A DNA stretch of 64,000 bases from Pseudoclavibacter chungangensis. GTDB lineage: Bacteria > Actinomycetota > Actinomycetes > Actinomycetales > Microbacteriaceae. Positions 35,607 through 39,220 of the stretch are shown here, in pieces. Each line of letters starts with the position of its first letter. Position 1 is the stretch's first letter. Under the pieces are notes generated by a model, which saw only the letters and a program-made list of their open reading frames with translations, had not been told where the DNA came from and ran no database searches. The position numbers were made by a program, and so were the translations under genes. Where the stretch lies: positions 1,240,001-1,304,000 of the forward strand of contig NZ_JACCFV010000001.1 in the NCBI RefSeq assembly GCF_013410545.1, given 5' to 3'.

Positions 35607-35679
35607 GGGCCTGTAGCTCAGTTGGTAGAGCGCCACGTTTACACCGTGGATGTCGTCGGTTCGAGCCCGGCCGGGCCCA
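35607..35679 (+). tRNA. tRNA-Val (UAC anticodon)
   Basis: GGGCCTG acceptor pairs with CGGGCCC (one G-T pair), discriminator A at 35679; D-arm TAGCTCAGTTGGTAGAGC, anticodon stem CCACG/CGTGG with loop TTTACAC giving UAC, and T-arm GTCGG-TTCGAGC-CCGGC. CCA is not precisely encoded (ACCCA follows). It borders the variable region, and tRNA 3' ends are common integration sites. Confidence 0.95.
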
Positions 35680-35877
35680 CCCAATGATGTTGACGCCCGT
35701 ACGCACGATTGTGAGGGCTGCGGCCACGACTCGAAAGTCTGAGGTCGGGTGACCAAATGCGGATCACACCAAATCGACACAGGGTGCGGGTCGTTTCGTG
35801 GTCTCATTGGCTAATCGAACCCCTGGTCCGGCTCGAATTGCGAATCAGCTGGTCAGTGGCGGGATGGAAGGCTCCGA

Positions 35878-37149
35878 ATGGTTGACGGCGTGTTTGGTTC
35901 GCTTTGCAGTGACTGCTTTGAGGCAGGCGATCGGTGGCTTTGGGTGCTCCGTAGGCAACCGAGCCTGGATTGGCCGGGTCAAGGTGACGAGTTCATGTCT
36001 CTCATTGAGGGCGAGATGCTCAATCGAATGATCTCTCACCCTTTACAGACTGGCTTCACAACCATTGATTTCGAGCACAATGGGCGAGTGTATTCTTATC
36101 GGCGGTATTCACTGGATGACTCGGCGCGTGGGAACTTGGCGCTCCTGCCGGTTGCTAATGATGAATGGATCGTATGTCTTGAGTCCCAGATAGGCCATTT
36201 TCCGCTGGGTGAAATTGTAAATCTAGAGTCAGTAGTGGTCCTGGCGGGGGCTAGACTGGGCGAATTGTCGGAGTATGTTTGGCAGTCGATCATCGCGCCG
36301 GTAAAATTCACCTCCGGCTCCTTGAGGCTTAGTCATGATTTGCAACTGAATGACCTTAATATTCGGGCCTCCGTCACTTCCTACGAGCGCTATCAGTGGA
36401 GTTTCCGCAATCGTAGCTTCGGCGGTGGAGGGATGATCGAGACTCTTCACCCAAGTTTGGTGACCGGAAGAGTCGTTGGAAGTGACGGCGTGACGCGCCA
36501 GAGTGAAAGCAACAGGACTGTACTTGAACTTGCTGCAGCGCTCACCCTGCTCACGGGAGTGTATTGGGAGGTTCTCATTCCTCCCCGAGGGTCGACGATC
36601 GACTTGAATCAACTGCCCACTCGCGAAATGGGGTTGCCACTATTGGGTGAGTCTTCGGGGTCGGCAATCGCCGGTGTGAATATCGAGCAAAAATCCCTTG
36701 GGGTCATTATTGAATCGATGAGGGTGAATAAGAGGAATAATGCTCTCATGGCTGGGTTCTACCACGGATACGAAATTGAACAGATTGGTCCATCGATGGC
36801 CTGTGTTGCCTATGTTGCCATCATAGAGGCAATTGGAAAACGACTTGCGTCGATGAATAAGTCAGAGGACTGGGGGAGTAAAAGGGCGTACAAGGAAGCG
36901 CTTAAATTGGTGCTATCGGCAGACGAGGCGAAACGTCTTGGGGCCCTATATGGGCTGCGGTCGAGCACTGCGCACGAAATGAAACTGCATTCGACCGAAT
37001 TTCGATTGGGTGCGGTGGTGAACACTTTCCGACGAGATGAGCCGGGTAGTTTCTTGTACTCTCAAGTTTGGCATTTGAGGGAGGCGGCTCGAAGGCTGCT
37101 CGAACTCACCTTATTGGACAGACTTCCGGGCTTTGAAAGCTCCAGCTAG
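35878..37149 (+). CDS. Large protein with C-terminal HEPN-like domain (candidate defence RNase)
   Basis: 423 residues, in DNA visibly poorer in GC than everything around it, directly after tRNA-Val. GGAAGG precedes the ATG. The N-terminal two thirds are beta-rich without a recognised domain. The C-terminal 140 residues are helical, with CVAYVAIIEAIGKRL, a second helix (AYKEALKLVLSADEAKRLGAL), then GLRSSTAHEMKLH containing Arg361-x4-His366, then a final helix VWHLREAARRLLELTLL. Helix-RxxxxH-helix is the hallmark of HEPN ribonuclease domains, including the ApeA-like ones of antiphage systems. The family assignment is inference; no partner antitoxin is adjacent. Confidence 0.7.
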   Translation: MVDGVFGSLCSDCFEAGDRWLWVLRRQPSLDWPGQGDEFMSLIEGEMLNRMISHPLQTGFTTIDFEHNGRVYSYRRYSLDDSARGNLALLPVANDEWIVCLESQIGHFPLGEIVNLESVVVLAGARLGELSEYVWQSIIAPVKFTSGSLRLSHDLQLNDLNIRASVTSYERYQWSFRNRSFGGGGMIETLHPSLVTGRVVGSDGVTRQSESNRTVLELAAALTLLTGVYWEVLIPPRGSTIDLNQLPTREMGLPLLGESSGSAIAGVNIEQKSLGVIIESMRVNKRNNALMAGFYHGYEIEQIGPSMACVAYVAIIEAIGKRLASMNKSEDWGSKRAYKEALKLVLSADEAKRLGALYGLRSSTAHEMKLHSTEFRLGAVVNTFRRDEPGSFLYSQVWHLREAARRLLELTLLDRLPGFESSS

Positions 37150-37230
37150 GGAATGTTGAGTTTGTAAGTAGCGGAGAGCTTCTAGTTCAGGGCAAACTAC
37201 TGACGGTCGAATGTGTTGGGCAGGGCGGGT

Positions 37231-37500
37231 TCAGCCGGTCGTTGCAACGCCGGTTTGTCGAAGCGAGCGGAGATGCTCTTCGTACACGTCGGTGAGTGCG
37301 TGCCGGGCAAGGCTCACGTGAGGCCGGTCGTCGATCGCGAGAGCGTCGGCCTCGAGATCCTCGGCGCACCACCCGGAGACGTGCGCGCTTCCCGGGAAAC
37401 ATCGACGCAACAGCCCGTGGGCGTTCTCGCTGGTCGGTCGCCGCCAGGGGAGTGGCGCGACGAAGAACTCCTTCGTGCCGGGCTCGAGCGTGAACCGCAC
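37231..37500 (-). CDS. Hypothetical protein
   Basis: A GTG-started frame of 89 residues: MRFTLEPGTKEFFVAPLPW, then RCFPGSAHVSGWCAEDLEAD and DDRPHVSLARHALTDVYEEH. The composition is balanced and unlike the Arg/Ser-rich shadows common here, so it is probably a real or recently real gene. High GC returns at this gene, just after the AT-richer HEPN gene. No family recognised. Confidence 0.45.
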   Translation of the reverse strand: MRFTLEPGTKEFFVAPLPWRRPTSENAHGLLRRCFPGSAHVSGWCAEDLEADALAIDDRPHVSLARHALTDVYEEHLRSLRQTGVATTG

Positions 37501-37753: not shown

Positions 37754-39220
37754 GGCTCTTCGGACATTCGGTGGGGGTGAGGCTCGCCGGGTGATGGTCG
37801 GCGGGTAGGGGTCGAGGTCCCCGAGGATCAGTAGCGCCAACTGCTGCTCCAACCGAGGACCTCGACGTGTCTCACGATAGTTCGGGGTGCGCTGACGCGT
37901 GCTCCGCCGCCTGCCCGTGTTCCCGCTGCGACTTGCTGCTCGGCCTCGATGGGGTCCATGTCGAGGACGTTGACCGCCGTGACGGGCTGCTGATCGTGAC
38001 CGTCTCGAGCCCGGCGGCACCGACCGGCTGCCCGTCGTGCGGGGTCGTCGCGACCGGCCGCGGACGTCGCCGACGGGTGCTTCATGATGTGCCCGGCGTG
38101 ACGCGGGTGCGGATCGTGTGGCGGCAGCGGGTCTGGCGGTGCGACGAGGTGGGATGCGTGCGACGGACGTTCGTGGAGCAGCTCCCGGGTCTGGTGGCCC
38201 GGCGCGGGTCGATCACCACGCGCGCCGTCGGCTGGGCGATCGGGCAGCTGCGCCGCGAGCACGCCACCGTGCACGGTATCGCCCGTCAGCTCGGAACGTC
38301 GTGGAAGACGGTGTGGCGGGCCGTCGAGCCCGAGCTGGTCAAACTGGCTGAGGACGAGTCCCGGTTCGAGAACGTCACCACCCTCGGCGTCGATGAGCAC
38401 ACGCTCCGAGCCTCCCCATCACGTCGACCCCCGAAAGCGCGGCCCGAAGGAACTGACCGGGATGGTCGATCTCAGCCGCGACAGCACCGGAAAGACGCGG
38501 GCCAGACTGCTCGACCTCGTGCCCGGCCGCTCCGGGAAGGCCTACGCGTCCTGGCTCGCAGACCGCGGCGAAGCGTTCCGGCAGAACGTGAAGGTCGCAG
38601 CTCTTGACCCGTTCGCCGGCTACAAGACCGCGATCGACGACAAGCTCGAAGACGCCACGGCCGTGCTGGACGCGTTCCACGTCGTCAAGCTCGGCACCGC
38701 CGCTGTGGACGAGGTCCGCCGCCGCGTCCAGCAAGACACCCTCGGGCATCGCGGTCGGACCGGCGACCCGCTCTACGGGATCCAGACCATCCTCCGCGCC
38801 GGCGCCGAGAACCTCACCGAGAAGCAGCGGACCAGGCTCGCGGCAGCGATCGAGGCCGACCCCGCGCACGACGAGGTGTTCGTCGCATGGCAGTGCGCCC
38901 AGCAACTGCGTTCCGCCTACCACCAGAAGGACCTCGTCGAGGGGCGGCGGATCGCCGAGAAGGTCGTCGACACATTCCACACCTGCCCGATCCCCGAGAT
39001 CGCCCGCCTCGGCCGCACCCTCCGCCGCTGGCAGGCAGCGTTCCTGGCCTACTTCACGACCGGACGATCATCGAACGGCGGCACCGAGGCCGTCAACGGG
39101 ATCATCGAGCTCCACCGCCGCCTCGCCCGCGGCTTCCGCAACCGCGACAACTACCGACTCCGCATGCTCCTCGCCGCCGGCGGACTCACCCCATGACCCC
39201 CACCGAATGTCCGAAGAGCC
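37754..39220 (+). mobile_element. ISL3-family insertion sequence, copy 2
   Basis: 1467 bases bounded by GGCTCTTCGG inverted repeats. Nearly identical to copy 3 except for a 16-for-6 base replacement, scattered changes and the 3' end. Flanking octamers GGTTTTCG and TCATTACC do not match, so it was not left by a simple insertion at this site or it has since recombined. Confidence 0.9.
37867..39196 (+). pseudogene. ISL3 transposase of copy 2, reading frame broken
   Basis: The first part carries the zinc-finger cysteines (CSRC, CPSCGV), the helix-turn-helix and LGVDEH with the first catalytic Asp. At 38401-38416 the sequence ACGCTCCGAGCCTCCC replaces the six bases ATCTGG of copy 3, a net gain of ten bases. 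The rest of the enzyme, in the next frame, can be read from ATG 38393 (MSTRSEPPHHVDPRKRG) to 39196 and holds GTEAVNGIIELHRR. The two frames overlap at the ATG, so coupled or frameshifted synthesis cannot be excluded. Confidence 0.85.

Follow-up and report, generated by a model that had tools for sequence, protein, structure and literature searches.

What is encoded by the single AT-rich gene that lies behind a valine transfer RNA (tRNA) gene of Pseudoclavibacter chungangensis? The gene was studied in a 64,000-nucleotide stretch of the forward strand of contig NZ_JACCFV010000001.1 (positions 1,240,001 to 1,304,000; assembly GCF_013410545.1), called here the window, and all positions are counted from its first letter. 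The reading we prefer, with a probability of roughly 0.58, is that the product would be a stand-alone HEPN ribonuclease (RNase) effector whose N-terminus is an uncharacterised sensor and whose mode of action resembles that of Tha or ApeA; this reading builds on a structural model and on analogy with these systems. The gene and the parts of its product are as follows:

35878..37149, + strand: AT-rich intact gene, 423 amino acids (aa) from the ATG at 35878; alternative ATG at 35995, 384 aa
35878..36696, + strand: N-terminal region, residues 1-273, putative sensor or regulator; no family named, strands at low confidence
36697..37113, + strand: predicted HEPN domain, residues 274-412, from the first to the last helix of model m1cac7c493708
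36826..36828, + strand: codon of the invariant acidic residue E317 in helix 2 (E-x3-K here), with the role given in the available part of PMC3710099
36958..36975, + strand: RSSTAH motif, R361 to H366, predicted RNase active site (model and conservation)
36991..37026, + strand: predicted beta-hairpin soon after the motif, residues 372-383 (AlphaFold2 model)

The assignment of the C-terminus to an HEPN-like predicted fold is supported, because R-S-x3-H is invariant in five of five aligned members and the best structural matches are HEPN proteins. The alignment comprises the window protein and four remote relatives (P0002, L081, L084, and L089), 24-26% identical to it overall and 28-33% in the C-terminus. 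The AlphaFold2 model of the C-terminus derived from these five sequences (predicted local distance difference test, pLDDT, 78.6) is a four-helix bundle of two alpha-hairpins, and the HEPN-like domain with R361-x4-H366, proposed in a first-pass annotation made from the letters of the DNA, is thereby supported; the outcome that would have refuted it, a model lacking the HEPN bundle, did not arise. HEPN proteins occupy the first 18 Foldseek rows and the 24 best VIA rows; SUGP1, talin, vinculin, and designed bundles, also present in the structure lists, were put down to generic helical similarity. In the model, the helix of residues 90-100 includes R94 and H99, corresponding to R361 and H366, at the end of helix 3, where HEPN proteins carry the motif. 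A sequence search of the PDB with the window protein gave chance hits only, and one with a four-member profile four non-HEPN hits with E-values no better than 0.28. As regards the N-terminal region, a beta-rich sensor of about 280 residues had been suggested, and strands hinting at it appear only in a single-sequence AlphaFold2 model of the full protein (pLDDT 34), which was not used for any claim on the fold.

Sixteen of the 25 invariant columns of the alignment lie at or beyond residue 297 (423-aa numbering), including E317, Y358, R361, S362, and H366, while the N-terminal regions of the five members align poorly. R361SSTAH366 is the sole R-x4-6-H in the 423-aa protein. R361, S362, and H366 are invariant in all five members; the serine is polar, yet not among the N, D, and H usual in HEPN proteins. 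E317 is equally invariant, with K or R at +4 in the window protein only (HEPN proteins have an acidic residue in helix 2, often as E-x3-[KR]). According to the available part of PMC3710099, HEPN groups devoid of the motif exist and may act as substrate-binding domains, which leaves room for a nucleotide- or RNA-binding regulator of HEPN fold without nuclease activity; the retention of R and H in five of five members at such low overall identity points to catalysis and makes this very unlikely. It is worth adding that two relatives, L081:904-2214 (CPECCQYC) and L084:1378-2637 (CKTC), contain a Cys-rich insert, perhaps a zinc knuckle, between HEPN helices 2 and 3, which the window protein lacks.

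The composition of the gene is foreign. Its open reading frame (ORF), devoid of internal stops, has a G+C content of 0.525, against a window median of 0.701, and is the lowest of 1255 windows of 1272 bp across the 64 kb, the lowest value elsewhere being 0.644. The low-G+C dip spans about 35700-37230, from the tRNA-Val side to the IS30-family transposase remnant. The true start is uncertain between the two ATG codons: that at 35878 is preceded by GGAAGG and that at 35995 by AAGG, the database entry being the 384-aa form. Residues 1-60 show a resemblance to the N-terminus of L084, which 13 of 1000 shuffles equalled; for L081 and L089 the corresponding values were 251 and 80 of 1000.

The family is real but sparse within the genomes searched. 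No match reaching the family cut-off was found for the 423-aa protein in Pfam, PADLOC, NCBIfam, or PHROGs; DUF6054 and Sda for the window protein, BioB and NrdG2 for L081, and two PHROGs families, each hit by a single member of the family studied here (E-values 0.014 and 0.2), all fell far below it. A first search of 5.8 billion proteins, in which the best 8000 candidates by common words were considered, returned only the protein itself, and tblastn on plasmids and phages returned nothing. With the C-terminal 149 residues as a query, the same protein collection yielded one relative, P0002 (415 aa, E-value 6.6e-5, 35% identity over the C-terminus), and a protein search with L084 found only L084 itself. 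Profiles grown from the window protein and P0002 then led to L081 (E-value 3.6e-18), L084 (2.4e-54), and L089 (6.3e-41). Beyond the genome of origin, the actinobacterial profile searches gave matches in 1 of 394, 2 of 297, 2 of 220, 1 of 119, and 1 of 106 genomes; these sets overlap, and the distinct matched genomes are three. In nine congeners a single-sequence search, which detects close relatives only, found no close copy. Scans of genome contigs (8 and 40 pattern matches) and of viral contigs (46, 99, 46, and 10) gave no confirmed member, and Foldseek on viral models no E-value of 0.001 or less. Apart from the gene itself, an initial single-sequence search of the phylum turned up nothing but places with E-values of 0.006-0.7, the best of which (L003) is an ORF that we take to encode chorismate synthase. 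The literature searches yielded nothing that could be linked to this family, an unnamed family being unreachable by text search.

The position of the gene was described in relation to the following features:

35607..35681, + strand: tRNA-Val(tac), Rfam tRNA; immediately followed by DNA that differs from one congener to another
37231..37500, - strand: remnant of an IS30-family transposase, C-terminal end, abutting the gene; plasmid matches
37736..39238, + strand: ISL3-family insertion sequence with 43-nt inverted repeats; transposase split over the frames 37867-38607 and 38393-39196

The gap between the end of tRNA-Val and the start of the ORF is 196 bases, close to the 200 first estimated, and the AT-rich insert contains no convincing second ORF; together with the variation of the site among congeners, this agrees with the proposal of a single-gene insert of distinctly low G+C content. 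The ORFs flanking it code for a peroxiredoxin, insertion sequence remnants, MarR, and an aldo/keto reductase. The 37231-37500 remnant matched 94 plasmid records, the eight listed being 53-57% identical and three of them annotated as IS30 family transposase. The ISL3-family copy is probably inactive, because its transposase lies in two frames. Eight tRNA-Val loci were read, from the nine congeners: aceE is present at seven and peroxiredoxin also at seven, across the tRNA in L079, and the 35878-37149 gene at none. In the first 1500 bases behind tRNA-Val, only 3 of 36 locus pairs (window included) have anything in common, and this amounts to 36-93 bases adjoining the tRNA. When 8 kb are considered, blocks of 0.5-3.8 kb, starting at differing distances from the tRNA, are common to L073, L075, L076, and L077; none of these blocks recurs in the window. 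DNA that differs between congeners, with shared blocks at shifting distances, is the pattern expected from a repeated insertion site and a sign of variable inserts. Neither an integrase nor an attachment repeat was confirmed at the site; the sole partial repeat of the tRNA 3' end (21 nt at 81%) was judged to be due to chance. In one congener, behind the same tRNA-Val, L072:2648-3656 holds an excisionase-like ORF and an ORF resembling the N-terminus of an integrase, both read by eye only; a tblastn search of plasmids with the second returned nothing, and the integrase reading, unconfirmed, was not used.

Three relatives could be viewed in their surroundings, and in four of four loci, the window included, the G+C content of the gene is below that of the surrounding stretch, most weakly in L090, where nearby bins reach up to 0.65. 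The neighbours are:

L082 (read by eye): GntR, XRE-like protein, HAD, FMN reductase, luciferase-like protein
L085: tRNA-Pro, HTH_31, flavoprotein, NUDIX, DNA cytosine methyltransferase
L090: MFS, PfkB, DUF4304

Comparison of the 8-kb flanks of the four loci brought out just two resemblances: one, of the size of an MFS-type transporter, links L090 with the window, and the other, 49 residues long, links L082 with L085, where it lies opposite their regulators. A DNA cytosine methyltransferase (L085:9372-10829; PADLOC MTase_II, E-value 1.9e-84) is encoded about 1.5 kb downstream of the relative, and no restriction enzyme was identified beside it. A gene of defence type is thus found near one of three relatives, and because of this the context favours mobility over defence; the abortive-infection role suggested in the first-pass annotation is putative. 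Moreover, the relatives L082:7193-8548 and L085:3461-4933 lie 0.9 and 1.7 kb downstream of genes for helix-turn-helix-type regulators, the HTH_31 match being in L085 only and the L082 regulator read by eye. The gene contents also bear on whether the protein could be the toxin of an HEPN-MNT-like toxin-antitoxin pair whose antitoxin is missing or encoded elsewhere. Toxins of this type (PDB 7ae2, 8xeh, and 6m6u), small single-domain proteins with chains of 129-147 residues and an MNT antitoxin as partner, are among the best structural matches; still, no adjacent MNT antitoxin gene was found, the insert offering no convincing companion and the four loci no conserved neighbour, and at about three times the toxin size the protein has only a very slight chance of belonging to such a pair.

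In the effector reading, an N-terminal region of about 270 residues would be fused to a C-terminal HEPN RNase with R361 and H366 in the active site and E317 of helix 2 in a supporting role. As long as the cell is uninfected, the HEPN domain, probably a dimer, would be kept inactive by the N-terminal region; contact with a phage component would set the RNase free to cut cellular RNA, and growth and phage production would be stopped, as described for Tha. The gene itself would be mobile as solitary cargo, inserting at accessory sites of which the stretch behind tRNA-Val is one example. What the computations show is an intact gene of foreign composition, a motif conserved in the family, and an HEPN-like predicted fold; RNase activity, dimerisation, autoinhibition, the trigger, and the defence role are all inferred.

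A profile comparison with ApeA was made as well. Membership in the Pfam family HEPN_Apea (PF18739) was not borne out: neither the window protein nor its own genome gave a match, for the protein up to an E-value of 10 within the HMMER filters, and PF18739 matches 33 of 396 genomes of the order, 31 of them over the cut-off. HHalign of the family C-terminus with two groups of ApeA members gave scores of 20.7 and 25.5, with probabilities of only 2 and 10%. Neither score was reached by any of 150 column-shuffled or 120 block-reversed controls, of which the highest were 19.1 for the 20.7 group and 17.5 for the other; against all ApeA members together the P-value was 0.06 and the probability 0.9%. 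A distant tie between the family and ApeA is possible, as judged from sequence profiles.

Several observations weigh against the effector reading. An R-x4-6-H occurs in 88% of shuffled versions of the protein, so that the motif alone is uninformative and needs independent support. The Foldseek E-values are weak and the Z-scores middling for a helical bundle. No HHalign alignment pairs the motifs, since the one scoring 25.5 covers helices 1 and 2 and the one scoring 20.7 stops before the ApeA motif, which slightly lowers our confidence. These three points would suit a protein that is not HEPN at all, an unrelated helical domain in which R-x4-H arose by chance, an explanation rendered highly improbable by the best structural rows, which are HEPN throughout, and by a motif both invariant and placed as in HEPN proteins. 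In addition, PADLOC matched none of six ORFs from the loci of the two relatives without the methyltransferase. Finally, the relatives mostly have ordinary accessory genes as neighbours, helix-turn-helix regulators being close to two of them, and no viral copy was confirmed, as might be the case for an HEPN RNase engaged in another conflict or stress role, be it plasmid or mobile-element exclusion or stress-activated RNA decay. This we regard as unlikely, sporadic presence, a lone low-G+C gene, and the want of a close copy in the nine congeners speaking for a mobile conflict gene over a host regulator.

An HEPN-fold protein is of a known kind; the family and its N-terminal region are covered by none of the libraries searched, and an alignment of five members suffices to reveal an HEPN-like domain unseen by all four of them. 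We tentatively propose, at odds somewhat short of even, an undescribed actinobacterial family of single-gene HEPN RNase immune effectors with a new N-terminal phage sensor, carried as lone AT-rich cargo and too divergent for current models. If this were true, single-gene HEPN effectors would be undercounted in actinobacteria, and R361, H366, and E317, along with a separable N-terminal region, would make infection sensing directly testable.

Among known HEPN systems, the Csm6/Csx1 RNases of type III CRISPR carry CARF before HEPN; the window protein gave no Pfam match to a CARF family. For AbiJ-type proteins, the available part of PMC3710099 proposes an N-terminal domain that senses and at the same time restrains a toxic C-terminal one. 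Tha, a tail-activated HEPN protein of 301 aa by which prophages of Staphylococcus aureus act against phages, is described in the available part of PMC11087260 as carrying R-x4-H in a C-terminal HEPN RNase that a phage protein switches on, whereupon RNA is cut and the cell stopped; its expression alone does not slow growth. The prophages bearing it also encode an inhibitor, Ith, according to the same text, whereas no inhibitor gene was seen at the window gene, and the likeness to Tha is one of architecture as described there. ApeA has RNxxxH in most members of the order, in contrast to RSxxxH in the window protein, which also differs by the beta-hairpin after the motif; the ApeA N-terminal domain is mostly beta, of about 300 aa, and strands are seen in the window protein only in the pLDDT 34 model. 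As far as the available part of PMC3710099 describes it, ApeA (PF18739 with ApeA-NTD1) likewise consists of a long N-terminal region followed by a C-terminal HEPN domain.
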